The notes under the pieces were generated by a model. That model saw only the letters and a program-made list of their open reading frames with translations, was not told the DNA's origin and did no database searches. From Todiramphus chloris collaris (lineage: Eukaryota; Chordata; Aves; Coraciiformes; Alcedinidae), in assembly GCA_025345505.1 (NCBI GenBank), contig JANVCC010000130.1:6147441-6211440 (forward strand): a stretch of DNA of 64,000 nucleotides, read 5' to 3'. The translations under genes and the position numbers were made by a program. Below are positions 407 to 64,000 of the stretch, piece by piece. Each line of letters starts with the position of its first letter. Positions within the stretch are counted from its first letter, which is position 1.

Positions 407-38097
<37,691 letters not shown>

Positions 38098-42530: not shown

Positions 42531-42680
42531 GATGTTTCTCAGAGCTCGGACTTGCCTCCTGGGTGTGGCACTTCAAAATTGACTTCAAGTTAGTCTGTCT
42601 CAGACAGGCAATTTATGGGGAAATTGAGACATTCCTAGTGCTCTGTCTTGGGCCAAGGGAAAATATGGTGCTGTCATGGT

Positions 42681-43917
42681 CATAGAATCATAGAATGGCT
42701 TAGTCTGGAAGGGACCTTAGAGATGATCTAATCCAACCTCCCCATCAAGGGCAGGGACACATCTCAGCTAGACCAGGCTGCTCAAGGCCTCATCCAACCT
42801 GGCCTTGAACACCTCCAGGGAGGGGACGTCCACAAACCCTCTGGGCAATCTATTCTGGTTTCACCACCCTTGTACTGAAGAACTCTTTCCTAAGATCCAA
42901 TCTAAACCTGTTTGCCCTCAGTTTAAATCCCTTTGCTCTTATCCCATTGCTGGAGCCTCTTGTGAAGAGTCCCTCTCCAGCCTTCCTGTAGATTCCTTTC
43001 AGGTACTGGAAGGCAGTTATAAAGTCCCCCCAGAGTCTTACCTTCTCCAGGCTGAACAATCCCAGCTCCCTCAGCCTATTCTTGTAGCAGAGGGGCTCCA
43101 GCCCCTGGATCAAATTTGTGGACCTCCTCTGGACTCGTTCCAACAGATCTATGTCCCTCTTATGGTGGGGACACCAGAACTGGACAGAGTATTTGAGGTA
43201 GAATCTCACAGGAGCAGAGTAAAGAGGGAGAATCACCTCCCTTGGTCTGCTGGCCACACTCCTCTTGATGTATCCTAGGATATGGTTGGCTTTCTGAGCC
43301 ACATGAGCACATAGTCAGCTCATGTTGAGATTCTCATAAACCAACACCTCCAAGTCCTTCTCTTCATGGCTACTCTCAACCCACTCTGTACCCAGTCTGT
43401 AATTGTGCTGGGATTGGCCCAGCCCAGATGCAGGACCTTGCACTTTGACTTGTTGAGCCTCATGCAGTTTGCATTGGCCTATTTCTCAAGCCTGTCAAGG
43501 TCCCTCTGGATGACAGCCCTTCCCTCAAGTGAGACCACTGCACCACAAACTTGATGTCATTGGCAAACTTGCTGAGGGTGCACTTGCTGTCATTGTCCAT
43601 GTCGCTGACAAAGATGTTGAACAGCACTGGACCCAGAACAGATCTCTGAGGAGCTCCACTTGTCACCAGTCTCCATCTGAACATCAACTCTTTGAGTGTG
43701 ACCTTCTAGCCAGTTCCTTATACACTGGGTGGTCCATCCATCAAATCCATATCTCTCCATCTTAGAGACAAGGATGTCATGTGGGACAGTGTCAAATGCT
43801 TTGCACAAGTCCAGGTAGATTATGTCAGTTGCTCTTCCCATATCAACCAGAGTTGTAACTCTGTCATAGAAGGCCACCACATTAGTCAGGCATGATTTGC
43901 CCTTAATGAAGCCATGT
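42681..43917 (-). mobile_element. Outer CR1 LINE, 3' segment
   Basis: This is the 3' part of a long minus-strand CR1 split by another CR1. Its 3' tail (complement of ATTCTATGATTCTATG) is at 42,681. The reverse-transcriptase core is read in degenerate frames, including [38 protein letters not shown] and [12 protein letters not shown]. The catalytic YxDD-type motif, usually FADD, reads FANDIKF here. The element continues, after the insertion, at 46,911. Confidence 0.93.
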
Positions 43918-46910
43918 AGATTGGAAGGGGGAAGGGGACACAACAGGCTGTACTAGATATGATCCCAGCGGGAGCATGCCAGGGTGTGTAGAAGTGAGTA
44001 CCAGTGAGGACTCTTGTACTGCTATCTCAGTGAGAGTAGAGGTTGGAGATACATGGGACAGCAAAGATGGAAGAGTTACTGACAGGTTGGAAGCCATGAA
44101 AAAAACTGAGAAGAGTTGGGTAGGAATTAAGGCTTCCACCCATAAAACAGTTTTGGGAAAATTAGCCCATTTCAGGTCTGTTTAGGCAAATGCACATAGC
44201 ATGGGAAACAAGCAAGAGGAACTAGAAGCCATGATGCACAAGGAAAACCACAATATAGTAGCTATCACAGAGACATGGTGGGATGCCTGCCATGACTGGA
44301 GTACCACTATCAATGGCTACAAGCTCTTCAGGAGAGATAGACAAGGTAGGAAAGGCGGAGGGATGGTCCTGTATGTAAGGGACTTTACATATTTTCAAAA
44401 TGTAATTATGATGATGACACAGTTGAGTCTCTATGGCTCAAAATCAGAGGGATGGCCAACAGAGCTGATGTTGTGGTGGGGGTCTGTTATAGACCACCCA
44501 ATCAGGACAGAAAGGTTGATGAAACATTCTACAAGCAGCTGGGAGTATTGCATTCGCTTGCCCTGGTTCTTGTGGGGCACTTCAACTTCCCAGATATTTG
44601 CTTGAAATATAACACAACAGAGAAGGAACAGTCCAGGAGGTTGCTAAAGTGTGTCGAGCATAATTTTCTTACACAACTGGTGAGCGAATCTATCAGGGAG
44701 GGCACCCTGCTAGACCTGCTTGTTGTAAACAGAGAAGGATTGATGGGTGATGTGATGGTTGGAGGCCAACTGGGGCACAGTGATCATGATATGATTGAGT
44801 TCTCTATTAGTGAAGCAGGGAAGGTTGGCAGCAGAACTACCACCTTGGACTTCCAAAGGGCAGACTTTGACTTGCTTAGAAGACTGCTTGATGGAATCCC
44901 TTGGGAAGAAATCCTGAAGGGCATAGGAGTCTAGGATAGCTGGACACTCTTTAAGAAAGAATCTTAAAGGCGCAGGAGCAAGCTGTGCCCTTGTGCCACA
45001 AGTGAAGCCAGTGGTAGAAAAGTAGAAAAAAGTCCAGCCTGGATGAACTGGCAACTCTGGCTGCATCTCAGGGAAAAAAGGAGAGTCTATCTCCTTTGGA
45101 AGATGGGACAGGACACACATGATGACTATAGAGACATTGTAAGGCTATGCAGGGACAAGATTAGAAAGTCCAAAGCCCAGCTAGAAGTTAATCTAGCTTC
45201 TGTGGTTAAAGACAACAAGAAATCTTTTAATAAATATGTTAATAGTAAAAGGAGGACAAGGGAGAGCCTCCCCCCTCTACTAGATGCGGGAGGAAACTTA
45301 GTGACTGAGGATGTGGAAAAGGCAGAAGTGCTTAATGTCTTCTTTGCTTCAGTCTTTAGTAATAGGAGCAGTTCTACTTTGAGAATCTAGACTTCTGGGC
45401 TTGAAGACCAAGGCTGTGAGTGGAGTAATGCACCTGCAATCCAGGAAGAGATGGTTGCTGACCTGCTACACCGCATAGATGTTCACAAGTCTATGGGACC
45501 AGATGGACTTCATCCAAGAATTCTGAGAGAGCTGGTGGAGATGCTCACTAAGCCACTTTCCATCATTTTTCAGCAGTTCAGGCTGACTGGGGAGGTCCAA
45601 CACACTGGAATGTGACACCCATCTACAGTATCATCACACAGCATGTGCAACACAAACGGATGATCAGGCCCAGTCAACGTGACTTTATGAAGGGCAGGTC
45701 CTGTTTGACTAACCTGATATCCTTCTACAACATGGTCACCATCTTACTGGATGAGGGAAAGGCATTGTCTATCTGGACTTTAGTAAGGCCTTTGACACTG
45801 TATCCCACAGAATTCTTCTAGAGAAACTGGCGGCTTATGGCCTAGATGAGCTTACTGTTTGCTGAGTGAAAAACTGGCTAGAAGACCAGAGACTAGTAGT
45901 TAATGGAGTTAATTCCAGCTGGCAGCTGGTCACAAGTGGTGTTCCCCAGGGCTCTGTACTGGGACTGGTCCTGTTCAGTATCTTCACCTCAATGAGAAGA
46001 TTGAGTGTACCTGTAGTAAGTTTGCAGATGACACTAAAATGGGTGGATGTGTTGATCTGCTAGAGGGTAGAGAGGCTCTGCAGAGAGATCTAGACAGACT
46101 AGATCGATGGGATGAACTGTATGAAGTTTAATAAGGCCAAGTACCTGGTTTTACACATTGTCCACAACAACCCCTGGCAACACTACAGACTCGAGGAAGA
46201 GTGGCTGGAGAGCTGCTCATCGGAGAGGGACCTGGGGGTGTTGATTGACACCTGTCTGAATATGTGCCAGCAGTGTGCCCAGGTGGCCAAGGAGGCCAAT
46301 GGTGTCCTGGCCTGTATTAGGAAAAGTGTTGCCATTAGGTCCAGGGAAGCAATCCTGCCCCTGTACTTGGCACTGGTGAGGCCACACCTCTATTACTGTG
46401 TTTAGTTTTGGGCCCCTCACCACAAGAAGGACATTGAGACACTAGAGCTTGCCCAAAGAAGAGCAATAAAACTGGTGAAGGGCTTTGAGCACATGTCTTA
46501 TGAGCAGTGGCTGAAGGAGCTGGGGTTGTTTAGCCTGGAGAAAGTGAGGCTCAGGGGAAACCTTATTACTCTCTATGGCTACCTGAAGGGAGGTTACAGA
46601 GAGGTGGGAGTAGGCTTGCTTAATCCAGCAACAGATGATAGAACAAGGGGAAACAGACTCAAGCTGCGCCAGGGGAGGTTTGCTTGGATATTAGGTATAA
46701 CTTCTTTGCTGAGTGGGTTATCAGGTGTTGGAATGGGTTGCCCGGGGTGGTGGTGGAGTCCCCATCCCTGGAGGTGTTTAAGAGCTGACTAGATGGGGTG
46801 CTTAGAGGTATGGTTTAAGGGGTGGACTTGGTAGTGTTAAGTTGATGATTGGACTAGATGATCATACAGGTCTTTTCCAACCTAGACATTTCTATGATTC
46901 TGTGATTCTA
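43918..46910 (+). mobile_element. Inner CR1 LINE inserted in an older CR1
   Basis: A 3.0-kb plus-strand CR1 copy. From 5' to 3' it has an APE-type endonuclease with NIVAITETWWDACHDWS (frame from 44,201, later shifted to 44,452-44,934), a linker region, reverse transcriptase with [16 protein letters not shown] (about 45,866-46,063) and the CR1 C-terminus with [20 protein letters not shown]. It ends GATTCTGTGATTCTATG. Frameshifts and stops, plus an apparent deletion near 45,620 where the fingers of the polymerase should lie, make it inactive. It sits exactly between the two halves of the outer CR1. Confidence 0.93.
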
Positions 46911-49475
46911 TGTTGGCTGTCACTGTTCACCTCCTTATTTTTCATGTACCTTAGTACAGATACCAGGAGGATCTGCTCCATGATTTTACATGGCACAGAC
47001 ATGAGGCTGACTGGTCTGTAGTTCCCTGGGTTTTCTTTGATTCCCTTCTTAAAAATGGGGGTCATGTTTCCCCTTTTCCAATCTGTGGGGACTTTGCCAG
47101 ACTGCCATGACTTCTCAAATATGATGGCTAATGGCCTATCAACTTCAGCCACAAGTTCCTTCAGGACCTGTAGATATATCTCATTAGGTCCCATGGACTT
47201 GTGCACCTTCAGGTTCTCTAGGTGTTCTCGGACCTGATCTGCCCCGACCCCGGGTGATTCTTCACTCTCCCAGACCCAGCCAATGTCCTCTGTGACTTGG
47301 GTGGTGTGGCTCAAGTGGTTACCGGTGAAGACTGAAGCAAAAAAGTCATTGAATATTTCAGCCTTCTCTATACCCTTGGTAACCCTGCATCCCTTCAGAG
47401 AGGCCCCACATTCTCTCTTGTTTTTCTTCTTTTTTTCTCTGACATACCTGTAGAATACTTTTCTGTTATTTTTAATGTCCCTGGCCGGGTTTGACTCCAT
47501 CAGGGCTTTAGCTTTTCTAACCTGGATTCTCATTTCACCAACAATCTCCTTGTAGTCATTCCAGGTTACCTGTCCTCCCTTCCACCTTTCGTGGATTCCC
47601 CTTTTGTGTTTGATTTCGTGCAGGAGTTCCCCATTTATCCATATAGGCCTCCTGGCATCTTTGCCTGATTTCTTCTTTTTAGGGATGCAGTGCCTTTGAG
47701 TTTGGAGGAGATGATCTTTGAAAGTCAACCAGTTTTCCTGGGCTCACAGTTCCTCCAGGTCTTTGTCCCATGGTACACTACTGAAGTCGAGGGTTTCAAG
47801 CTTGCTGACTGCCCCCTTCTTTGCTGCCCTTAGGATTTTAAACTCCACCATCTCATGGTCACTGCTGCCAAGGCTGCCCTTGAGCTTAATGTTTCCCACC
47901 AGCCCCTCCCTGTTGGTGAGAACAAGGTCTAGCAATGCATCTCTCCTCGCTGGTTCCCCTATTGCTTGGAGGAGGAAGTTCTCATCAATGCATTCCAGGA
48001 ATCTTCTGGATTGCATAAGCAATACTTTGCTGTGTTGTCTCTCCAACTGATATTGGGATGCTTAAAGGCTCCCATGAGGATTAGGGCTTGTGAACAAGCA
48101 GAAACTCCCATCTGTCTGTGAAAGGCCTCATCCACTTGGTCCTCCTAGTCAGGTGGTCTGTAGCAGACCCCCACTGTAATATCCCCTTCCCTTCCTTTCA
48201 CCCTGGCCCATAGGCACTCAGTCTTTTCATCATCACTCATCAGGTGGAGATCCCTGCATTCTAGCTGTTCATTGACATAGAGGGCAACATCCCCTCCTCA
48301 TCACCGCTGCCTGTCCTTCCTGAAGAGCTTATATCCTTCTAATCCAACACTCCAATCACAGGAGTCATTCCACCATGTCTCCATGATTCTGATTGGATTG
48401 TAGCGTTGTGGGCATGCAAGCATCTCCAGCTTCTCTTGTTTATTGCCCATGCTGCAGGTGTTTGCATATAAAGGCATTTGAACTGGGCCCCTGATGAAGT
48501 GACTGGAGCCCCTGAAGCTGACTTACTGGCTGGTATAGCCTTTAGTTTTCCCTGTTCATTGTCCATGTTGAGTGCATTGGTATTCTCAATGCATAGCCCC
48601 ATTCTGCCCCCATCCCCCTTCAAATCTAGCTTAAAGGCCTTCCAAGGCCTGCTAGTTCTTGCCCCAGGATTCTTTTTCCCCTTTGAGAGAAGCATTTCCT
48701 ATCTGTAGTCACCAAGCCTGGGGTCTTGTAAAGTAGCCCATGATTGAAGAATCCCACATCCTGCTAATGACACCAGTCATGTAGCCAGACATTAATCTGC
48801 TAGCTTTTCCTGCTCATGCCCTCATCCAACATGGCTAATGCTGGCACAGAGGCAAATACTATTTGCACTTCCAATCCTTTCACCATTTGTAACAGGGCCC
48901 TGAAATCTTTCTTCATCGTTCTCAGGTTTCTTGTTGAGATTTCATCATTGCCTACTTGGAAAATCATTAGTGGGTAGTAGTCAGATGGACGGACTAGGGT
49001 AGGAAGTTTTCTCAGTATGTCCTTGATCCTGGGCCCAGGGAGGCAACATACTTCCCTAAGGAGTAGATCAGGTCTGTATTTAGGACCTTCTACACCCCTC
49101 AAAAGCGAATGCCCAATGACAAGGACCCATCTTTTTTTCTTAACTGCAGATGTTTTGATCTTAGGCTTGCTCTGTCTTAGCCTCTGTGAATCATGCAAGC
49201 TAGGCAAGCTGTCATAGCTGCCATTGTTTGGTTTCCCTTGCAGAAGATCATTCTCATTGATATCTGGTTCACCCAGAGCAGCAAATCTACTTTGCAGGGG
49301 CACCTGGGGAGGTTCAGTGGCTACTGGAGTGCCATGCCTGCCACACCTGTCAGGAATTTGTCTCCAATGTTCCCTGCATTCTAAGTCATCCCATTCTCTT
49401 GTCTCTGGAAAGCAAAATGTGGTTGCACTGTCTTTATCCTTCCTGGTCAGGGAGGAGGCAAGAGCAATATAACAC
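46911..49475 (-). mobile_element. Outer CR1 LINE, 5' segment with ORF1 and ORF2 remains
   Basis: On the minus strand, from high to low coordinates, there is an ORF1 remnant with the esterase-type GHSLLRG motif (49,303-48,800, frame open upstream to about 49,470). Then comes the start of ORF2 (endonuclease, badly shifted, 48,700-47,750). A 278-codon frame (47,728-46,892) follows with KAEIFNDFFASVFTGNH, NPGNYRPVSLMSVPCKIMEQ and RYMKNKEVNSDSQH, cut by the inner CR1. The 5' end is not defined. The element was nearly full length, about 3.8 kb, when inserted. Confidence 0.92.
48800..49470 (-). pseudogene. CR1 ORF1 remnant with SGNH/esterase-like domain
   Basis: The minus-strand frame contains KKRWVLVIGHSLLRGVEGP, followed later by YPLMIFQVGNDEIS and KGLEVQIVFASVPAL. 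These match block I (GDSLL-type, here GHSLL) and the GxND-type block of SGNH hydrolases. Such an esterase domain is known in ORF1 of CR1-type elements. The catalytic block I Asp is replaced by His. It ends before the final catalytic block, near 48,800, by stop or shift. This is transposon-derived and not a host gene. Confidence 0.75.
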
Positions 49476-50491
49476 CGGGGTGTGTGACCCAGCCAGGATC
49501 AGCTAAGGAGCACACCAGAAATGGCTCCATCAGCACATGGAGGACAGAGAAGTGGTCTTCTCTGTGGGCCTGTAAGATAACTTTTATGGAACTTCCAGCA
49601 CACTGTAACTTGGAATATGAAGACATGAGTGCTCATCCCCAGAAACGTGTTTGCAGATGTCAAAGGATGCCATGCCCTGGCAAGAGCAGAGCTGAATCTC
49701 CCCTGAGCTTGCCTTGCCAGCTGTTATGACCCTGGCTTTTCTGAGAGTCTACCTCACTGGAGATAAAATCATGACAGAAACAAGTTCCAACAGAGGCACT
49801 TAGCCTGAGAACGCACTCAAATCTTGAAGGGCTAGGGTAGAACAGGTCAGATCCTGTGAGCAGGAAAAGCTCAGAAGTAAAAACTATTCCAGTTCAGGTC
49901 TCACTGGCAGTCCCACAATTCTGTCTGTGCAGAGAGGACATCACTTGGATTGGGCTAGGATATGAGGGAAGAGACCCTTTGGTTCCCTGGGGCAAGGTCA
50001 ATGAAGAGAAGGCCCCAGTGAGGTAAGAGGAAGGAAGACCAAGATCTGACATTGTGCATGGCAGTCCAGACAGGGAGATGTACATAGGGCTCAGGCTAAT
50101 TGTCTCTCCACAAAGAAGCCCATCTCCAGGGATGAACAGCTTGTAGACACCTTCAAACAGAGCAGGAGGGCTGCACTTTGAAGTTACCCAGAGGAGGAGG
50201 GTTATCTTAGGTTCTCACACATATCCTATGCAGGCAGTTTCCCTTGATGTGTCTGGTATGGCCAACATAAATGTCCCTACACCTAACACAGTAGAAAACA
50301 CATTGCTTTTCTGTTGTCTGGCAAGTCTGATCTCACCATCCACATGGATGAACTGCATCTTCAGCCCCACCACATGCCCTGAACTTGCTCTGGAGAATTA
50401 CTCACATCCTCAGGCAGTTTCTAATAAACAGCTGGCAATTGCAATCCACTCCTCTGTCTCTCAACAAAGACTGACTTGGTGGGGATCTCAG
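49476..50491. other. Sequence between outer CR1 and first recognised TH2 pseudogene exon
   Basis: About 1 kb that may hold the CR1 5' end and TH2 exon 1. I could not recognise either; there is no clear tyrosine hydroxylase N-terminal motif. Confidence 0.5.
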
Positions 50492-50661
50492 GCCAAAAGA
50501 AAGAGGCCAGCAAGGAGAAGGAGGTGTGTAGCATGGAGTCATTGAACAGGCAAGGCAGCCTGGACTCCAACGAGGAGGGCAAAAGAGCCACTCTCATCCT
50601 GAGCCTCACCCTCTACAATGTGAGGAAGACTGAGCTCTCTAAGGCACACAAAGTCTTTGAG
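50492..50661 (+). pseudogene. TH2: TH2 pseudogene exon 2
   Basis: The exon is open throughout and reads KKEASKEKE, later SNEEGKRATLILSL and LSKAHKVFE, matching the TH regulatory domain (EEKEGKAML... and SRAVKVFE). The donor GTACAG is at 50,662. The acceptor, GATCTCAG at 50,484-50,491, is the least certain boundary. No lesion was seen. Confidence 0.75.
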
Positions 50662-51553
50662 GTACAGACCTTACCATTCCCTTTGTCCACTGAGACATCT
50701 CTTCTGTCCCTACTGCCTTCATCTCTCCCCCTACTCTGAATCTCCCTATCTCTCTCCCTTCTCCTGCTCCCTGTTTGACTTGTGTCTCCACTTGCCTTTC
50801 ACCTTTCTCATTGTCCCTGTTTTCCTACAGCTGCTCAGAGAGGTTGGCTGGACTCTCCAGGTAAAGAGAGTGCTCTGGAGGGAGGGAGCAGTTGGACAGA
50901 GTAATTTAGAAGAATTGTCATTTTATGTAGGGGCTGTTTAGAGCAGATACCAATCTATTTCTTTCTAGCAGTTGTGGTGATCAGCCCTGACTGAAAAACA
51001 GGCCAGTATTTCAAGCATTCAGATTGTGAGGATGTTAGAAGCCGTATTTGGCATGAGATACAGAGAATACAAGAGCTGTAAAACATACAAGCATATATTC
51101 TGGGCACTTGAAGCATCCCTACCAGGTGCTCACTCTCATCCGTGAAAATTAATAACTCAAAACTATTGTATTTGTTACTTATTTTTAATCATTTGCAATT
51201 ATTTAAGGATTATGATGCTATTTTACATCAACAGATTTGCTTTCACTCTGCCAGGGGTTTAGGAGTTACCTAGCCACTCATTTGTTATTTCTGCACAGAT
51301 GAAATGCTACTCTCAATAGTATCTCATCTTTCATCTCCATCTCTCTCTACCTAATTCTATGGTTTAACCTTTAGCTCTGCCCGTATTTTAGCTCCTTCTA
51401 AAATGGGCATTATTAAGCTTTATTGCTTAACATGCATTTCTTGTTAATACCTCTTTTAGTCACCTTTTAAAGATTTTGTAGAAGCATATCTAGACTTACC
51501 TGGATTTTCAGTCTTTGGATAAGCTGTATCATATGAACCTCTGGCTCTTGCAG
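50662..51553 (+). other. TH2: TH2 pseudogene intron 2
   Basis: 0.9 kb, with a pyrimidine-rich stretch at 50,660-50,830. No other feature was recognised. Confidence 0.6.
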
Positions 51554-51728
51554 ATGTTTGAAACTCAGATCCATCACTTTGAAACCAGATGAACCAAAAA
51601 ACCCAAGAACTCTGCTGATGATCTTGACATTTTTGTTGAATGTGAAGTTCACAGTGCTGATGTTAATATCCTTTTGATCTCCTTAAAGAGAGTAGCAGAG
51701 GATGTGCAAGCTACCAGAGAAGACAAAG
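51554..51728 (+). pseudogene. TH2: TH2 pseudogene exon 3 with in-frame stop
   Basis: The 175 nt sit between CTCTTGCAG and GTAAGA. They read MFETQIHHFETR, stop, then a frame continuing LDIFVECEV and RVAEDVQATREDK. Human TH has TFEAKIHHLETRP and SEDVRS in these places. The TGA is at 51,590-51,592. Confidence 0.85.
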
Positions 51729-53357
51729 GTAAGAAATGTATGCATCTATTAGGGCTGTTCTGTTTTGTTTTTTTTTTTTTTTTAATAGCTTTTTTAGTTT
51801 TAGCATCATAAAAGTAATTTAATTTGTTTGGAAGGCAGGTGAATGTGCATTCATTTTACTACACTGCATGACTGTTTTCCCTCAATTAGGACCATTCCCA
51901 TTGGTGTGGAGAGAAAAACTTCATCAACACTAGAGATAAGTGTTCCAGTAAAAAGGGAGATGAGAGAGATAGAGCAGCAAAACCAGAAGCTCAGCTGAAG
52001 CTGGAAATTCCTCTATGTCGGGAAGATTGTATGCTGAGAGCTGAGAGCTCTGTAAAGAACAGACTTTGAGGCAAACGCATACATTTGATAGAAGCGTGAT
52101 CATATAGCAGGGGGTCTGAATGTTTCATTTGCTTGTAGTGTATTGTATTGGTTTTGTTAAAAGAAGTAGCACCTCTCAGTTTATGGTGTCCTGGATACTC
52201 CTATCTGGTTCCAGATGGACTCTCTGGGGGTAGATTGCTCCTTCAGTGTAAAGAGATAAATGCAGTAAGCTCTAAGAAGCTTCCAGAGTGCAAGAGAGAG
52301 TCAGTGTCAGCAGAGTCCGCAGGTACTGGGCAGGCTGGGAGAACCAGGCAATGAGCTTTGTGTAGAGAACAGGCCCACTGCCAAATCTGGAGTAACAGCA
52401 CCAGGCATTTTCCCAAGCACTTGAAAAGCTTGTCTGGAGGTTGTGCACCTTCAAAGGTTGCACTTTAGGAAGAGTATTTCACCTGGTGAAGTGCTGCAAG
52501 TGGCTACTCCACTGCCTGTGCTGTATTTGAGTCACCATCCCTACCAGTCATCAGGATGGGAAGTGTCTTTGCCAGAGTTAGACTGGTATTTTTCCTCTTT
52601 ACAGGAAGGTATGGGATGGGTGAGTACATCAGGCTGTTAGAGACCTTTAATATAATCCTGAGAATGCCAGAGGTGCCCCTGGGAGATGAGAAGGCTGAGG
52701 GTCCAGCTCATAGTTTGAGTTCTCTGAATACAGAATTTCTATGGGGTTTCCCATGTTTGACAAGTCCAGGAAGAAATCCCCAAGGCCCTTCTGGCTAATA
52801 AAGTTCTGTCTGGACACCTAGAGGACTTCTGATCAGGTATAAGTTTTGAGGAGATATGACCATGACAGGTATCTTGCACGCAGAACCAGTGCTACAGCTA
52901 AAGACAGTGGCTCAGCAAAAAAATTCTGGGGTGGTGTAAGACATGTGTTAGATGGGTATTTCTTCCTTCTTACTGAAAAATTGTCCATAACTGCATGGAA
53001 GAACTTGAATTTCCCAACATCAGTTGTATTTGTAGCCTTGCATCTTTGTGAACTGGCTGTGCCTGGATATAGTATAACAGAGCACAGGCTAAATTTGCCT
53101 CTTTGTACAGAGATGCCTGATTTCATGTCAAGTATGAGATTAAAGTGACCCCAAATGGATCTTTTCTGAGCTCTAACACACTAAGTCTGATCACAGTATC
53201 AGTCTTACCTCAGAAAGCAGAATCAACTTTTTTTTTTTTTTTTTTTNNNNNNNNNNNNNNNNNNNNNNNNNNNNNNNNNNNNNNNNNNNNNNNNNNNNNN
53301 NNNNNNNNNNNNNNNNNNNNNNNNNNNNNNNNNNNNNNNNNNNNNNTAAAAAAAAAA

Positions 53358-53401
<44 letters not shown>

Positions 53402-54030
53402 TTGTTTATAAATGCTGGCACTTAAGCATTTGAGCACATTTTATTTTAGTTACCAGAAAAGGTCCCCACTTCAGGGGAAGGAAACTCTTTGGAAATGCAG
53501 ATAGTACTACAATAATTTAGCTAAAACAAAAAAAAAGAAAAAAAAATTATCCAGGAGGAAAAGACTTGAAATCAAGATACTTCTTGGCCTATTTTGTTTC
53601 TAGAAAATGCATGTTTTCCTTTTAAGACATTGCTTTCACTTTTAAAGGTTTCGAAATTTAAGACTACTTTTTAGACCTGATCAAAATATTTTCTTAAATC
53701 CAAACTATAGAAATAAATTTGTTTTGCTGTGTCAAACAGAACATCTCAATTAGCCTAAGAAGGGAATTATTTTTCCTTTAAAAAGGCAATTAGAATTGAG
53801 AGGTTAATATTGAAAGTTAGTTTCAGATCATTTCAGATAATAGTTTCTGATAAATTTTGCAAGTTTGGTCAGCAAACTTATTCAACTACTAACATATGGT
53901 GACAGGTAGATATGAATATTCTTAGATACTGATGAAAAGAAAGCTTGTAATCTTCAGCACAACTTTTATTTTCTGTCTTTTAAAAACTATTTGATCCTAC
54001 TTCATTTAACTCTTGCTGCTTTCTCTCCAG
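51729..54030 (+). other. TH2: TH2 pseudogene intron 3
   Basis: About 2.3 kb including a T run (51,768-51,783) and the assembly gap. No exon or mobile element with clear ends was seen. The true length is unknown because of the gap. Confidence 0.6.
53247..53346. other. Assembly gap of 100 N
   Basis: Exactly 100 N, the conventional unknown-size gap, lie between a T run on the left (53,228-53,246) and A then T runs on the right (53,347-53,394). Sequencing probably failed in homopolymers, and sequence of unknown length may be missing. Confidence 0.98.
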
Positions 54031-54115
54031 TGTCCTGGTTCCCCAGAAAAATCCAAGATATGGACAAGTGTCACCATCTGATCACTAAATATGATCCTTG
54101 GACCATGCTCATCCT
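54031..54115 (+). pseudogene. TH2: TH2 pseudogene exon 4 with 4-nt deletion
   Basis: The exon is 85 nt instead of the 89 nt of PAH exon 4. It reads [20 protein letters not shown] then D and P, after which four bases are missing. LDHAHP then resumes in another frame. The acceptor is TCTCTCCAG and the donor GTAAAT. Confidence 0.93.
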
Positions 54116-57100
54116 GTAAATTTAGCATCCTTGTTTTTTCATTTTTTAAAAAGAAACTCTGTGTAGGGAAAGTTTTGTTCGGAAATTTCAGGAAATACTC
54201 ATGAAAGGACTGAAGAATAAAGAGTCAGATAAAGGCTGGCCATCAGTGTAATTAGGGACTGCAGAAAGAATAACTTAATATGCAGAAAATCTTAGGGGCT
54301 CTGATTCACCAAGGTACATATGATTAACATCAGACACATGCTGAAGTAATTTCTACTCAACATATTCCCTAGCATAAGCTTACATTTCACTGTTTAGTTT
54401 AAAAAAAAAGCCTTGATTATTATTTCACCCCTGATATATTCAAAGGATGCCCACTTTTTACTAGCTGGCCCACATAAGAGTCAAATTCCTCAGCCTTCTG
54501 CTTTTTGTATTTTTCTGTATTTTGACCTTAGATATTCCATATCTGCATTTTTAATTTTACATGTGCCAGGAATCTCATTCAGGTGCCAATACATAGATGG
54601 TCTCAATGAGGACAAATGTCAAAGAGCTAGTCTTTAATAAATACCAGATCTCAGATGCCGCAGAGAAGAGTATTATGCCTAAACTTGCAAAAATCATCTA
54701 GACAGAAAATAAGATAAATACATGTCAGTATTGATTAATGGATATAATACCTGAACTGAAATTTAAATATGACTGGAGAAACTCAAAATGTTTAGTTATT
54801 TCAGTTGAGGTAAGCATCTAAAGTTCAAATAAGAAGCAAGTTGGTAAGATTATAAACCTAATTTACACCTGACTTTTCCCAAGGTCTTTAGAGCCAGGAT
54901 TTTGTCAATATATGGATAATACTTTGCAGACTATTGTTAGAATGTTTGTTACAGGTTTTCCCTTAGATTCAGGAGGTAGGTCTTTGTTACAAGTGGGCAA
55001 AAAAAGGGGCTTGACTCATAACAGTTTTGTATGTGTACTTCTAGCCTTGCCATAAGCAAAAGCTCTAAGAGAAGGAAGAGAGAAAATGCAGTGTCAAGTA
55101 CTGCTGTAGTGATGATAATAGGCAAAGTACTGGGGACAAACAAACACACACTCATTTCTCATCTAAGTTTTCCAACTTTAGTACAGATGAGATGTCAGTT
55201 AAGTACAAACAAAAAAGGGACTCTAAAGGCTCATTTGCCGATTGACAAGGTAGGTCACAATTGTTGTGTTCTGTCAAACATCACATAGAAATGACACATG
55301 AAAAAGAAAAAAGCACAGACTTTGCACTGACAAAATGCAAGGAATATTTAAATGGATGTCAATAGAAGCTGCAAGATTTTGTCATTCCCTTTTCTAAATT
55401 TCTGAATTCTATTTAGATCCTTTCATTAACCTACACAATATAAATGTGATTAGTTATGTACAGTTCTATGTGGTAAAAAAAAAAATTCCAAGTCTATCTT
55501 CTATTTTTGAGAATCAATAAGTTATAATGCTCTAAGAGAGCATCATATCCTCCTTAATCAGGATGTCTTTCACTATTCCTTGTGACTTTCTGATAGAAAC
55601 AAACCAAGTATTTGCCATCTTCCTGAGCTATCTCTGAGGCTGTTTCTCATGAGATAAATGATTGTGCATTGTGTATTCTTTGAATTTTACTAAATCCTCC
55701 TCCTACTTTGTCAAGGAGGAGATAAGAGCACTGAAAGGGATGAGAGAAAGCACCAATCATGCAGAATTACCGAAGTATTGAGTGGGAATAAATCTATACT
55801 GCAGAATGCAGTGCACTGTAGAAATACCTAAACTGGCTTGAAACAAGTCAGCTCAGGCACTGAATATATTTTTTTTTCTGGCAGGAGGGAGCACAGTGTG
55901 GGCTCATTTAGTATGCTACAAAGCATGGCTCAAATATAGACAGGTTGTAAGGTACCAAATACATTGATGTACAGGTGCCTCAGCAGAGATTTTGCATATG
56001 CATTTACTACCCAATTTGGCAATTTGGGCTGTCCATCTCAACAGCTTCACTTTGCTCTTTACTATCTCTGTAATGGCCAGAAAAGCAAACCAGTGACACT
56101 GTGACACCAGTTTCTGGAGCACCCTGATACTGGCTGTAGCAGTACTCTACATAGGGTCGTGCTGCAACAGCAAGGGCAAAGCTAAGAGGTCACAGCACCA
56201 ACATTGCTAGGCTGACCCAGTGGTTTTTCCACATGTTTTGCATCGACTTGTTACAGCTACTGACAAGCAAAGGTGGCATCTGAATGAACTTACTATCCAT
56301 AACACATGACAAAAATAAATGTGCTCTTGGGATCCAGTTCTTTCCTCAGATTCACGCACACAAAACTTATTAACCACAGTATTATTGGTATTATTGCTAC
56401 ACTGAAAATTATGTGAATAAACCTAAGGGAGAAATTTGGCTTGTAGCATGCAAAGTGGTTCCAGTAAATTCTGAATATTTTAGAATAATAAATATTTGTA
56501 CAGTGATGCTGATCAACCCTGCTTTATGAGTTATATTAGTAACAGTGCCAGATTTCAGCTTTTATTCCTATTACGAATGATGTAAAATTCAAAGGAATTT
56601 GATTCTACATCTCTATTCCTATTTAATAGCTGAAGAAGCCTGCCTGGAGCTCAACTTCTAGTAAACACTGAGAGTGCAAAAAGAATACTCTGGTATTTAA
56701 TAACTAAACTGACACTTTAGACAGATACCATTGAATATGTCTTTATCATAACATGGTAATAAATAGGCAAAGGGGGCTTGAGCTGAAAGCCTGTACTTTC
56801 TACAGATTCAGTGGTTCCAATGATTTCTAGCTAGTGAGGACCCATTCTTCACCTAAAGCGTAGGGTATTGTGTGGGCACAATGCACTTTCTTTGGCAAGG
56901 TAGCACTAAGCTTGATACCATCACATCCATTGCAGCCCTATATTGCAACCTTTGTGCTTAGCACAGAAAATAAATGATTCAGAGATTCAGCTCTTCTCCA
57001 GCAGGAGTGACACACATATTTCAATTATATTTCTAATGTGATTTGTATATAAATTTTACTGTATTTGTAATGTTCTGTTACATAGTGTTTATGAATAATT

Positions 57101-57348
57101 CCAAAACCTGACCACCAAGACATGTTACTTTCATTTCTGGTCACAGACTCCGTATTTTCATCAAAATGTCATGGCTGTAACTGCTTGTAGACTTTGACTT
57201 ATGTTCTTCATAAGGGTCAAGATTCATTGCCTCAGGGAAAACAACTTACTTGAGACCTCAGTTTTCTGAATGATTCTGTTAGAAAAGTTATTTATACCCA
57301 CAAATCTCTCTTAATGTAAAACTTTTTTCAAGTCATTTTCTAACTCAG
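54116..57348 (+). other. TH2: TH2 pseudogene intron 4
   Basis: 3.2 kb of AT-rich, apparently unique sequence with no recognised feature. Confidence 0.6.
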
Positions 57349-57416
57349 GGATATGCTGACCTGGAGTATAAGAAATGGAGGGCATTATTTGCTGACCTTG
57401 CCTTTAATTACAGAGC
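57349..57416 (+). pseudogene. TH2: TH2 pseudogene exon 5
   Basis: The 68 nt have the same length and phase as PAH exon 5. They read GYADLEYKKWRALFADLAFN followed by YR, like TH GFSDQVYRQRRKLIAEIAF. The acceptor is TAACTCAG and the donor GTAAGT. The exon has no lesion of its own. Confidence 0.9.
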
Positions 57417-58555
57417 GTAAGTACTAGACTGCTGAAGAGAGACTTTAGCAGTCCACATGTGCTTTCAGGCATCTTTGTGAGCAAGAAATATCAGAGACTT
57501 AATCTTTTGTCAATGTATCAAGGCAGCTATCTTTTAGAATGGGGAATTCAGGCACAGCAGCTTTCACTCCATACAAAACAGACTTCTCCCACAGCAAAGC
57601 AAATACACCAGCAGATAAAAATTTAGGATTTCATTCGCATCTCCTTCAGTGCTGTAGTTTGTCTTAGTAGAGGTGATTTCTCAGTATGACTTTCATTTCA
57701 ATTTTGCAGTTCCTTTTAGGACTACCTCCTGAGCTGAGGCTAATTTTTTTTGCAAGAACAATGTCTAGGAACATATTTTGTCAAAGTGATTTACTATTTT
57801 TGTTATTTGTTTGATAAAACATCTCCAGTCCTGTACATTAGCTACCTAAAAACCTCCCAGGACTTGTGTGTGTAATTGTAAATATTTCTGCCTTTATGCG
57901 TAAAACTTCTCCAGACACTACTGTCTGAGAGTCAGCCAGATGTATGGGTAGAACTGGTTGTGTATTATCAGCCTCATGGTGTCCAAGAAGTGGTGAAATG
58001 TCCCAAATCTTGAAAGACTTCCAAGTACAATTTTCTCAATGCCATCATATATCACAGCGGGCACAGCACAAAAACACATATTGAACTGGCTTAGAGCTAC
58101 TGTAGAAGCAACAGTGAGGGTGAGGAGAGAAGTTAGTGATAGTCACACAGTGTATGACTGGGCATCTCTTCACTGAAGAGTTTGTGAATGCTTCTCTGCA
58201 ATGATACTGTGCTGATCATGTCCTCCAGGGATGGACCCTCCAGGCACACGCTGTTTTGGTTGCTAGATTGCCTTCAGCAGAAGTAAAGGCAGGCCTCAAG
58301 ACCTCTTTTTACTTTGTAAAGCAGAACATGGCTCCCTTTCTTACTATATCCCTCTGTTTCCTCCCCACACTGTAACAGAGGACAAAATGCAGACATTAGA
58401 GCCTACCAAGATGAAGAGTTGTTAATTATGTACTGTTTTGTCATTTCTGTCATCACTACAACAAACACTCATGGTGAAGGCAAAGAAAATAATACTTGGA
58501 AAATTAACTTGAAACCTGCTTTAGACACATGGATTATTTTCTCTCTTTATTACAG
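57417..58555 (+). other. TH2: TH2 pseudogene intron 5
   Basis: 1.1 kb with no recognised feature. Confidence 0.6.
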
Positions 58556-58606
58556 AGGAGACCCATTGCCTCACATTGAGTACACAGTGCAGGAGACTGT
58601 AACTTG
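58556..58606 (+). pseudogene. TH2: TH2 pseudogene exon 6
   Basis: The 51 nt read GDPLPHIEYTVQETVTW in the ancestral frame, like TH GDPIPRVEYTAEEIATW. The donor is GTGAGT. In the frame imposed by the exon 4 deletion a TAA occurs at 58,600-58,602. Confidence 0.9.
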
Positions 58607-61600
58607 GTGAGTTTGTTACATACGCTCCATCTCCCGGGACATCTCACTGAAGCCCCAGGAAAGACTGACGATGTGAGACAGTTAAAATATTCTAAAACCA
58701 TATTTATCCGTCTCAAATTTTACTCCCTGGTTACATGTCAACTTTGGGTCTGTTGTTTTGCTGAAAGGCATTTTCGGGGCTTGTCTTCACTATTCACTTT
58801 CTAGAACAAAATGCATTTTCCTGACCACCTCCCTGCCTGAAAATCCCATCAAGATATCAGAAACCAGAAAACACCTGGAGCCTATAGTATAACAACATCT
58901 AACTGACTTCCAAATAATCATAGCTATGGTGGTGACAAAAATATCACCTTTTCCAATCTGTTATCAGGAGAAAATACTCACTCACAGGATGGATGCACAC
59001 TTATATGCTGTGGTTAATCCAGTGCTCACAGGCCAGATGAACCTTGGTTGTTTTCCTGCAAGTATTCATGGTAAAGGAAGGTAAAGGAAAATTTTTGGAA
59101 TGTACTTCCAGGATATGTTATTTGTACTGTAAAAAAGACGTTGATGTCGTATGCAATGATGGCAAGTTACTTTTACGGGGGTGCAGCACTTTTTTGCTGG
59201 GGTTTTGTTTCTCCTGAAGATCTGCCACTCAGAAAAAAACCCCAAACCAAAAACTGCAATCAAATAAAACTTATTAATTCAAAGCATGTTTGCAGACTTT
59301 TATGTAAAGCATGTGTCATGCCAATTTCAAAGAAAGCAGAGTTCTTATTTCATATACTTCTGTTTCCACATTCTCCCAATAGCTTTCACAAATCTCAGTA
59401 AGCAGCAATAATCACACATTTGTATGATAATACAAGTATAAATATGTCTAAATGTCCCCAGTAAAAGCAGAGTCCCAGGATTGTGAAAGGTGTTATACGT
59501 GCACATAATAAGAGAGTCTTTGTTCAGAAAAGTTTATAATTTAAATAGATAACATAAAGGTGGGCAAAAGCAAGAATAGTGACCACATTTTATAACTGTG
59601 GAACTGAAAAAGGTTGACCTTAAGTGATTTGTGCAAAGTTAAACCTAAAGTTTATGTTAATAGCAGGAATTAAATCCATACACTAAATACCTCATGCCAG
59701 AACCTCAACCACAGGGACATGCTATCTTTTTACAGTGATCATTTTATTTTAAGTAAAGTCTACTGTGTCATAGAAAGCTTGTGAGGTGTTGCCCACAGTC
59801 ACATAGAAACCTTGCATCCAACTCATCCAAGCAGTCACATTTTTATTAAACTCAAATAGGTTTTTATAACATCTTTCAATTGTCAGAGATTGATGGTACG
59901 GGTCATGCTCATGATTGTTACCACCAGCCAACAATCTTGGCATAGAATGGTGTGTGGGAATGTCATGTTTAAGAAAATTTAATTTTATGTTCTTTCCTGT
60001 TTTTCTCTTTTATTGCCAACCTCCGTCATTCCAGCCCCTTCTCCACCTAGAATTAGTCCCACTGTGGTAACAGAACAGACCTTTAAAGGAGCGTTTGTCC
60101 ATTCCTCCAAACAGCCAGCCTCAGTAACCCAGGTTGTCTTGCTATGCAAAGCTGTTTCCAAAATTAGACCTCCCAATGGTTATTATGGCCCCCAGGGGCT
60201 GTGCCCTGAGGTCAGCTGCATTACAGCACAACTTAATTGAGCACTGTACAACTGAACGGGAAATTTGTAGCACAGACTAAATTCCCTTGATGTTCCCTCT
60301 GAAGAGTTGTTGGATGCCTTCAGTTTGTAGCAACATGGTTACAAAAATGAAAACTAATCAAGTGAAGAAATATGACTTTGAGAAAACAGAGGGCACAGAT
60401 GATATGAAGTTTTCAAGCAAGCTTCTTGGAATGCTCTGAAACTAAGTTGTCATAAAAGATGTGTTATGGGTAAAAGCTATATAAGAAAAAGTGAAAATCT
60501 AGGACAAAATTATGAGGATGCACGTCACATCTTTATAATAAATAATAATTAATAAATAATAATAAATAATGCCACTTTTTTTTATTTTTGTAAAAGAATA
60601 AGGAAATTTATGTAAGATAATGTCACTGGCTTTAAAGTATTTCAAGTGCCTGGCTCCATCCTTTTTTATGAGGCTTCTTTCCAGAGTATTTCATAGACTG
60701 TTCTTTCAGCAGTTTCTCTTTCCATCTGTGGACTGAAGTACCATCAAATACCATCTTAATGGTCCTTTGAGTAATAGCATCTCCATATAGTGAGGCATAA
60801 CACCTATTTGGCACACTACTTTAGGGCAAGCTAAATTGTTGTTTGGAAATGTCTCCTACTCTATTAACTTTGGAGGGAACTTGGATGATTGCATTAGAGG
60901 TATTTAGAGAGGAGGAACACTTAGCTTTGGATAATTCATCAGTAGTTTCTAAGACTGCCTATGCTTCTGTGGTAGTCAGTGTTTAGACACACAGTAGATG
61001 ATACTTTGATAAAAGAGATTGTATATGGAGAACTGTAAGCAAGCCTGCTCTCTCTAGACTGGAGTCTGGTGATGAACTGTGCACTGGTTCAGATCCTATG
61101 CAACCTCCTGAAGTCAGTAGCATTCTATGGGGAAATAATCCAGAGCAATGCTTGAACTCTAGTCCTCCTCATTTTTTCCTAATTCTTCTATGGACAAGGC
61201 CCAGTCTCCTGTGGCTTTTGCAATAGTGACAGCAGCCACTGTTTTCCTCTGTTCTTTTAAATTTTTTTTTTCCTCCTAATGTTTTCCTTTATGAACCTCA
61301 TTCAGGTTCATTACTCCCACACTGTTTAAGACATTCGAACAAATGAAAAGAACCATTACTGGGGACTGGCTATCACCTCCATAGCAACAATAGCATCACA
61401 AAAAAAATTAAATAAAAAATACAATACAAAACCAACAAAAGGTCATTTTTCCATAGCAAGCATTTCCAAGAATGATCTCAATTTTCATAAAACAATGTTT
61501 ATAAAATTCTTAACACCCTAGGGCCATGTCTGAACAAAAATAACCATTTCTATAAGGTTCTTTGCCATCCTGTTACTACTTGTTTACTTTACAATAGCTA

Positions 61601-62368
61601 TATATTCCAGTATATTCCACGGCTTTAGACTCAAGCACCATCAAGTTTGGGAGAAGCTTGAAGTCTCTGCCCAGCCCAGATCTGGTTATATATTTTTTTT
61701 CTTCAGCCAGCCTCTTTTTGTACAATGGGCTAACTGCTTCAAGAAGTTGGCATGTCTTTTAAAGACATACTCCATGCCAGGCATTTTGAACTGCAAAAGC
61801 ACAAACCTCTGCTTGTCCAGATGTTACTCTTCAATATTAGGAAATTACTTTTTTTAAAGAGGAGGTTTGTAAGAGTCAAATATAGACTATGCTTCAGCAT
61901 GGAGATAGAGGGACTGGCATTTCAAGTTGAACCCCAGCATAGAGAGGGAGGGAATACCTTACTCATTCCATCCTTAAACTGCATAACATAGAGAGGGCCA
62001 CAGCCTCAGCTTTCTCCCTGGGGTTTTCCTGACACCTCCAACACCCTTATACCTAAGCAAGAAGCACTTCTGAATCACTTCTGAAACACTTCTTCACTTC
62101 TGAGTCCTGTTACATTAAAGGAGAGTGTAGGAAGGGATAAAACAGATTTGCTGAACAGAATCCACCTTCTAAAGGAAAAGTGAAACAAAAACCCTTATGC
62201 TTTGTTACATCCACCCAGGCATCAGCTTCCAAGAACCAGGTGTCCCGAGTTCAGATTTTTAGACAACTGTCTGTGCTTGGGGTTTAAGTCTCTCTGGGGA
62301 TCTGTAGATAGGGCAGATAAGTACTACTTTATTGAGGTGGGTTATGCTATATGGCTTTTGCTTTTCAG
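58607..62368 (+). other. TH2: TH2 pseudogene intron 6
   Basis: This 3.8-kb intron separates the two halves of what is a single exon in PAH. It contains an AAT-type microsatellite at about 60,535-60,569. No transposon or gene was recognised. Confidence 0.65.
60535..60569. repeat. AAT/AATT microsatellite
   Basis: A short interrupted run of AATAAT, AATTAAT and AAATAAT units, ending before GCCAC. Confidence 0.8.
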
Positions 62369-62514
62369 GAGAGAAGTCTACACAAAGCTGCGTAGCCTTT
62401 ACGCTACTCATGCCTGTACACAGTAAGTGGATGCCTTCCAGCAGCTGGAGAAATACTGTGGCTATCAGGAGGATAGCACACCTCAACTTCAGGATGTCTC
62501 CAGATTTTTACAAG
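62369..62514 (+). pseudogene. TH2: TH2 pseudogene exon 7 with in-frame stop
   Basis: The 146 nt read REVYTKLRSLYATHACTQ, stop (TAA 62,424-62,426), then VDAFQQLEKYCGYQEDSTPQ and DVSRFLQ. TH has KEVYTTLKGLYATHACGEH and later [16 protein letters not shown]. Exons 6 and 7 together give 51 + 146 = 197 nt, the exact length of PAH exon 6. The acceptor is GCTTTTCAG and the donor GTCAGT. Confidence 0.93.
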
Positions 62515-64000
62515 GTCAGTCTTTATGACCTGTGATTTATTATAGGGTTTCCTGTGTGTACACCACACACACAAACCATCTTATAGGACCCAAGCTGTTG
62601 AGCAGAGCTGATTAGCTACAGAGTTCCCTCAGGCAAGATGAGCTGTAGCAATAGGATGTTAGTACCAGGCAAATCTAGGGACGAAGCTGTAGGTAAGTTT
62701 GTGTTTGCTCCGTGAGTAGCTGTAGTTGGCATAGCACTAACAAACTAATTCCAGTCCTGACAGCACTAGAGCCACAGCAGCAAACAGCATGACTTACATA
62801 CACAGATTTTCTACAGGTGTGACTGTATTTTATGCTTCTATAGCTATGCTGATAGTAAAACCCAAGACCCAAACACAAGTACAGGTACATACCTCTTAAA
62901 TCCACTTTTTTCCAAGTGCCTGAGACAGGATGACAACATGTGCTAGATGAAATGATTTCCAGGAGGTCCTGCTAGTCAGTCAACAAGCTGCCTTGAAATA
63001 ACACTGCTTCTTTCTGTGGCCCCACTTGCCACACTAAAATCTTTGTTATCTACCATGTGGCTGACAAGAGAATAGAAAGGCTGTAAGTGCCTAATAATGT
63101 GGCCTTTGATAAAAAGACACATAAGATTACTAGACTGACCTACTTGCTGTTAACTAGGACCTGACTAGGAAGGGGCAGGAGGAGATGAAGGAAGCCTGCT
63201 TTCTTTTTATGAGGCCACAGGCTGCTTGGCTTCCCAAAGCCAAGTGCTTTGTGTGAAATGTCTGATTTCCTACCATTATCAAGAATGACTAAAGAAAAGT
63301 TGTCTTTAAAGCCTTTAAATGCTTCTTCTCAGTGACAAGATGTGCCAGAGGGAGGAGGACAGCTGATCACTACAATAAATAAATAATGAAAAGTATGGCT
63401 TAAATTTAAATAAATAAAATTATAAACAATATTCAGGAAATCAAGTGACCTGCTCCATGTATCAGTAGGTGATGCTAGTAAGCTTGAATAAGGTTTGTGC
63501 TGTTGAAGAGTTTTCAAAGTATTGCCATTTTTAAGTAATATTAAGCTGTTTGATGACAATGTTTTTATTGCACTTTTAGTGTAAGGGAATGGAGGGTTGG
63601 CATATGAAAAGCATCTCTCATGAACACCATCACATCCAGCTGTAGGAATTTTTCTATGTATACATTACGGATTTTCTCATGTATTTTCCCTTCTATTCAA
63701 CTATCCATCTTACTTCCCTCCTGTAGTAAGTAGACTGATGAAATTTTTTTCTCATGAAGTAGTTGATCTCATTTTATTTCATTTGCACTGTAGCTGACAG
63801 CAGGAAGCTCCAGAAATCATTTGATGATGGTTTGGTTACCACAGATATTTATATTGTTTAAGTGAATCAGGTGATTTTAAAGTGGAATATTTTAGGATAA
63901 TGTAAGACTATTCCGTCATAATACTATTTGTATTGCTTGTGTTGGTTGGCAACATTTGATTGCCTGGAGTCTGGGCCTGACCACTTCTTTTGTAGGCCCT
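62515..64000 (+). other. Sequence after the last visible TH2 pseudogene exon
   Basis: I found no counterpart of PAH exon 7 (the [11 protein letters not shown] region) in these 1.5 kb. The next exon is either beyond the window or lost. Confidence 0.6.

Follow-up and report, generated by a model that had tools for sequence, protein, structure and literature searches.

A twelve-exon TH2 pseudogene next to PAH in the genome of the kingfisher Todiramphus chloris collaris

The TH2 gene of the kingfisher Todiramphus chloris collaris was studied in a 64,000-nucleotide stretch of assembly GCA_025345505.1 (contig JANVCC010000130.1, here C90; forward strand, C90:6147441-6211440), referred to below as the window. 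The ND2 protein (346 aa) encoded on mitochondrial contig C709 was 100% identical along its length to that of T. c. collaris; among the matches listed, other Todiramphus reached at most 99% and other kingfisher genera at most 92%, so that the bird is most probably the collared kingfisher. The locus is almost certainly a unitary, intron-retaining TH2 pseudogene lying beside PAH. Since the start codon is lost and the frame is broken by two stop codons and a 4-nt deletion, a full TH2 enzyme cannot be obtained by ordinary reading of the sequence. A model's reading of the window from its letters, referred to as the original prediction, had already described a dead TH2 downstream of an intact PAH.

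Exon organization

The remnant consists of twelve exons, six in the window and six in the next 18 kb of the contig (Table 1), and GT-AG borders were found at all eleven introns. The lengths of exons 2-12 were compared with those of the kingfisher's own TH1, and ten of the eleven were equal, the sole exception being exon 3 (85 versus 89 nt). The gene is on the same strand as PAH and lies 12.4 kb downstream of it (PAH stop codon at 38095-38097, TH2 start-codon site at 50464). The remnant reads as 459 codons, and chicken TH2 has 458 amino acids. All six exons of the original prediction were recovered in the right order and phase, and their introns have GT-AG borders. Its end of the gene at 62514 has to be moved, as six further exons follow up to C90:6229256. 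An intron before exon 1 was rejected: the apparent acceptor at 50491, from which exon 1 had been predicted to begin, is coding sequence continuous with KTDLVGISG, and the coding part starts at 50464. A scaffold gap of 100 N occupies 53247-53346 in intron 2, with long T runs on either side.

Table 1. Positions of the TH2 pseudogene and PAH exons. Exons outside the window are given in C90 coordinates.
Feature	Position	Strand	Remark
TH2 pseudogene exon 1, coding part	50464..50661	+	ACA at start codon site
TH2 pseudogene exon 2	51554..51728	+	175 nt; holds TGA
TH2 pseudogene exon 3	54031..54115	+	85 nt; holds 4-nt deletion
TH2 pseudogene exon 4	57349..57416	+	68 nt, equal to TH1 exon
TH2 pseudogene exon 5	58556..58606	+	51 nt, equal to TH1 exon
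TH2 pseudogene exon 6	62369..62514	+	146 nt; holds TAA
TH2 intron 6, first part	62515..64000	+	continues past window end
TH2 pseudogene exon 7	C90:6216876-6217011	+	136 nt
TH2 pseudogene exon 8	C90:6217650-6217719	+	70 nt
TH2 pseudogene exon 9	C90:6219337-6219393	+	57 nt
TH2 pseudogene exon 10	C90:6221716-6221811	+	96 nt
TH2 pseudogene exon 11	C90:6227389-6227522	+	134 nt
TH2 pseudogene exon 12	C90:6229097-6229256	+	160 nt; normal stop at C90:6229254-6229256
PAH exons 2-13	about 4597..38097	+	tblastn with human PAH, junction search; exon 2 start approximate
PAH exons 2-5	about 4597-4713, 16860-17043, 24261-24349, 26503-26570	+	
PAH exons 6-9	29311-29507, 29866-30001, 31312-31381, 32852-32908	+	
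PAH exons 10-13	33820-33915, 34212-34345, 37329-37444, 38054-38097	+	

The four disabling changes

The column of each lesion was scored in 43 TH2 rows taken as birds, some of them by their position in a 46-row tree; P0035, P0039, P0041 and P0043-P0046 were excluded from these counts. The start codon (50464-50466) was found to be ACA, so that the remnant begins with TKTDLVGISG versus MKTDLVGISG in other birds (M in 26 rows, gap in 15, V and L in 1 each). The second lesion is a TGA at 51590-51592 in exon 2, after IHHFETR, at a site occupied by R in 19 rows, Q in 14, G in 5, K in 3, P in 1 and a gap in 1. The third, in exon 3, is a deletion of 4 nt near 54097; the corresponding bird sequence is DPSLDHGHP or a near variant, and the scored column has S in 42 rows and I in 1. 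The fourth, a TAA at 62424-62426 in exon 6 (THACTQ*VDAF), replaces Y (38 rows) or F (5 rows). Exons 4, 5 and 7-12 remain open. The last three lesions had been claimed in the original prediction and all are real; the ACA raises their total from three to four.

Identity of the remnant

Exons 1-6, read through, were searched against PDB sequences and resulted in E-values of 7e-69 with TH, 5.5e-44 with TPH1 and 1.9e-40 with PAH; the corresponding scores were 235, 154 and 142 bits, and that of TPH2 was 150 bits. A chance origin of the TH2 match is excluded. The query of the protein search was composed of all TH2 exons minus the first ten codons. Among the matches listed, avian TH2 was the best (lowest E 4.9e-247), with identities to the remnant of 82% for Buceros, 77% for chicken (XP_001235001.1) and 71-82% for the near-full-length bird rows; these were followed by TH2 of crocodiles, turtles, lizards, coelacanth, sharks, fishes, a monotreme and marsupials, and the top TH1 row, that of alligator, had an identity of 61%. 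A search with the C-terminal half, made for shortened TH2 of close relatives, gave a top identity of 88%, with pigeon.

In a 24-row tree the remnant was placed within the bird TH2 clade (8 rows, 100/100), all TH2 were united at 99/96, and TH1, PAH and TPH, including the kingfisher's own TH1 and own PAH, fell outside. A tree had been set beforehand as the refuting test of the predicted TH2 identity, and that identity stands. In the 46-row tree the remnant was found within Neoaves, its sister group lacking firm support. The NCBIfam scores of the remnant were 585 bits with the TH equivalog, 481 with PAH and 474 with TPH, and those of five other bird TH2s with the TH model were 625-641 bits. The cut-off of the TH model was rejected as proof of decay because these five bird TH2s are also under it. 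The remnant is TH2 by descent, presumably without TH2 function.

The chicken TH2 forward primer of Xavier et al. 2017 (PMC6585609, Table 2) was also compared with the window, together with further primers of the gene family. Its best match, 16 of 20 positions (next best 15), lies in exon 2 at 51610; within the window no match above 14 was obtained with the TH2 reverse primer. Three PAH or TH2 exon sites were matched equally well by primers for other genes, TH1 reverse with 16/20 and TPH1 forward with 16/21 at two sites, so that the primer evidence is weak.

Relaxed constraint

Invariant sites were counted with 20 bird TH2 rows and 6 further rows. At 18 of the 204 sites invariant in the 20 other birds the remnant differed. 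When each of the 20 birds was set against the other 19, 0-12 changes were observed at 172-216 invariant sites; the most changed were Anser (12), Pterocles (10) and Strigops (9), among them predicted proteins with odd stretches. Twelve of the 152 residues invariant across the 26 TH2 and TH1 rows were changed in the remnant. One of these twelve is the glycine of HELLGHVP, which is G in 43 of 43 birds and C in the remnant, and two others are R to C.

Tajima-type relative-rate tests were conducted with 7 birds and 3 outgroups, in comparisons that share data and are not independent. An excess of unique change was determined for the remnant in all 21 comparisons (1.4- to 6.8-fold, mostly two- to threefold), with p<0.05 in 20. 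In the 46-row tree the remnant had an end branch of 0.16, the median being 0.049. These counts point to relaxed constraint in the TH2 remnant.

Points against a pseudogene and alternative explanations

Several observations weigh against a TH2 pseudogene. The evidence comes from a single assembly of one individual. Exons 7-12 are free of truncating changes and the two histidines of CHELL..H, presumably the iron ligands, are kept, so that decay has not advanced far. As predicted proteins, one of them (P0020) marked as low quality, the bird TH2 rows are hardly expected to contain stops; they show the residue proper to each site. The rate excess was not significant for Buceros with chicken as the outgroup (p=0.17). 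The branches of Geothlypis (P0033, 0.18) and P0040 (0.16) were as long as that of the remnant or longer, perhaps resulting from bad gene models. It is also possible that an intact TH2 copy lies in an unassembled stretch.

Within the assembled sequence (1,173,753,469 bases, 889 contigs) a Biopterin_H profile search, the counts of which are lower bounds, scored at least 42 candidates with at least 35 exon-level matches, and no second TH2 copy was found among them. By position, the matches belonged to PAH and TH2 (C90), TH1 (C30), TPH1 (C30:5.73 Mb), TPH2 (C1) and an intronless gene of a bacterial contig (C618); the placement of the TPH1 and TPH2 matches was based on position and one tested exon each.

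The best surviving alternative, itself very improbable, is a recent null allele that is still segregating or private to one bird. It agrees with the origin of the assembly from one individual and with the open state of exons 4, 5 and 7-12, but four lesions together with scattered loss of invariant residues require a long unselected accumulation. A little less credible still is a locus that remains useful through a shortened, later-starting protein, exon skipping or a regulatory RNA. The eleven GT-AG introns and the open exons 7-12 with both histidines would suit such a residual function; however, the lesions are situated in exons 1, 2, 3 and 6, so that skipping removes core parts, and the remaining part has the G to C change in HELLGHVP and the two R to C changes.

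Errors of sequencing or assembly in an intact TH2 are less likely again as the source of the lesions. The gap in intron 2 could be quoted for such errors, but the lesions are four, separate and of differing kinds (start codon, two stops, deletion), they are accompanied by 18 invariant-site changes and raised protein change, and PAH exons 2-13 and eleven TH1 exons of the same assembly are lesion-free. An origin as a decayed duplicate of TH1 or PAH, suggested by the adjoining PAH and by the exon plan common with TH1, can practically be dismissed in view of the tree and of the identities of 71-82% with near-full-length bird TH2 versus 61% with the top TH1 row.

TH2 in other birds

Among the matches listed, open TH2 models were found in ostrich, kiwi, duck, goose, gamebirds, hummingbird, owl, falcons, parrot, passerines and hornbill, and a few predicted bird TH2 models were partial or without one exon. 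Open models across the bird groups indicate that the loss postdates the bird radiation and is distinct from the placental one, in agreement with the independence from eutherians that had been proposed at the outset.

Some of the other bird models have peculiarities of their own. The exon-4 stretch (GYADLEYKKRRAFFADLAFNYRA in others) is absent from four predicted bird TH2s (P0016, P0017, P0042, P0047), which may be due to an unusual splice site, to genuine skipping or to inadequate models. The pigeon TH2 record (Columba livia, P0057; 357 aa) is without the part of exons 1-2. In the low-quality sandgrouse TH2 (Pterocles gutturalis, P0020) a V precedes KTDLEGIS where other birds have M. In further bird lines, too, TH2 may be decaying or wrongly modelled.

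Predicted consequences and possible age of the loss

In birds keeping TH2, the enzyme would convert tyrosine to L-DOPA in cerebrospinal fluid (CSF)-contacting hypothalamic cells. In the kingfisher the normal start codon is unusable, and translation from a later in-frame ATG of exon 1 would end at the stop at codon 79. Starts past codon 79 would meet the frame-shifting deletion and, at codon 213, the TAA. All of these would be avoided solely by starting still further on, and the product would then lack the beginning of the catalytic domain. As no other TH2 was found in the assembly, catecholamine synthesis would have to rest on TH1. Selection on the CSF-contacting dopamine function may have been lost in the kingfisher lineage, or the function may have been assumed by TH1.

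The relative-rate excess in the remnant amounts to about 28 changes. With assumed rates of about 20 changes in an intact lineage since the neoavian radiation and about five times that number under neutrality, this excess corresponds to about a third of the time since that radiation, and a faster kingfisher mutation shortens it. By this rough reckoning TH2 may have been lost about 10-30 million years ago, and at such an age the loss would predate the species.

A loss in a bird lineage had been put forward in the original prediction; the loss is supported and the lineage is represented by one genome. That a whole kingfisher clade lost TH2, and that its hypothalamic CSF-contacting cells either ceased dopamine production or had it assumed by TH1, is conceivable yet rather doubtful. 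If true, these birds would be a natural knockout in which the dopamine side of the organ is separated from its serotonin and light-sensing side, the TPH1 and OPN5 exons inspected still being open.

Relation to known systems

According to PMC6585609, TH2 is present in bony vertebrates except placental mammals. In the same source (Xavier et al. 2017) TH2 transcripts are reported in CSF-contacting hypothalamic cells of chicken, Xenopus and zebrafish, the enzyme role being inferred. TH2 is the proposed explanation for dopamine synthesis in the 'dopamine-accumulating' CSF-contacting cells, the chicken case resting on expression (PMC6585609, PMC11774857), and chicken TH2 biochemistry is called for in PMC11774857. 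OPN5 is a light sensor whose presence in the paraventricular organ of birds is reported by quail work cited in PMC6585609.

The remnant shares its clade, length and the exon 1 start KTDLVGISGQK with avian TH2 (Gallus gallus XP_001235001.1, P0011; Buceros rhinoceros, P0001), from which it differs by four lesions, altered invariant residues and the lack of an intact frame. In placental mammals TH2 is likewise gone and TH1 kept (Yamamoto et al. 2010, cited after PMC6585609 and PMC11774857); the kingfisher case differs in concerning a bird, in being independent and in that twelve exons are still readable. Another sauropsid loss of a dopamine-system gene is that of the dopamine transporter (DAT; Lovell et al. 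2015, PMC4894405), which is reported for birds, crocodiles and lizards, whereas the TH2 loss described here concerns one bird and a synthesis enzyme.

In literature searches on TH2, no report of bird TH2 loss was present among the matches listed, subscription journals being mostly outside the coverage. A term search of two kingfisher genome papers (PMC9635628, PMC10598022) gave no hit for dopamine, tyrosine, pseudogene or gene loss. Events of this kind are known, and the present case, in a bird, looks new. Taken jointly with loss in a whole kingfisher clade, it would be the first TH2 loss outside placental mammals as far as the literature searches show, a claim that can be put forward only tentatively.

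The kingfisher is a candidate natural knockout for the brain function of TH2. Dopamine still occurring in its paraventricular organ would mean that TH2 is dispensable or replaced; its absence would mean that TH2 is the source. The statement that birds have TH2 fails for at least one bird, and caution is needed in generalising it to every bird species.

Neighbouring genes and other observations

PAH exons 2-13 gave an open frame of 435 amino acids without internal stops. The original description of PAH as intact holds to that extent, the result covering exons 2-13. A search of C90:6211001-6281000 with human ASCL1, the gene named in the original prediction as the far end of the interval, gave no ASCL1 within about 52 kb downstream of TH2, and the PAH-to-ASCL1 interval is therefore unconfirmed.

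The interval between PAH and TH2 contains, at 42676-49500, copies of a long interspersed nuclear element that resembles CR1. A plus-strand copy (about 43930-46900) was apparently inserted into a minus-strand one. No Pfam match was obtained for five CR1-like frames between the two genes.

In the kingfisher's own TH1 (C30:7.12 Mb) eleven exons were read and all are open. At the equivalent of the TH2 exon 2/3 junction it has KFHWFP versus the usually conserved KVPWFP of human TH and several bird TH2s. TPH1 was stop-free in eight aligned exon stretches, and in the three of five OPN5 hits that were inspected the exons were open.

Contig C618, with 3,416,713 bases, is of the size of a bacterial chromosome in a bird assembly, and a 10 kb portion that was read had dense frames and 58% G+C. 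Its intronless genes resemble what we take to be PhhA, ArgB, DapD and YidC, presumably of an alphaproteobacterium by their look; the contig is either contamination or a resident microbe. An intronless COX1-like frame of 609 amino acids at C506:41165-42502, on an 87.7-kb contig, is perhaps bacterial. COX1-like stretches with TGA, TAG and TAA at C6:12999644-13000607 have the look of a nuclear copy of mitochondrial DNA.

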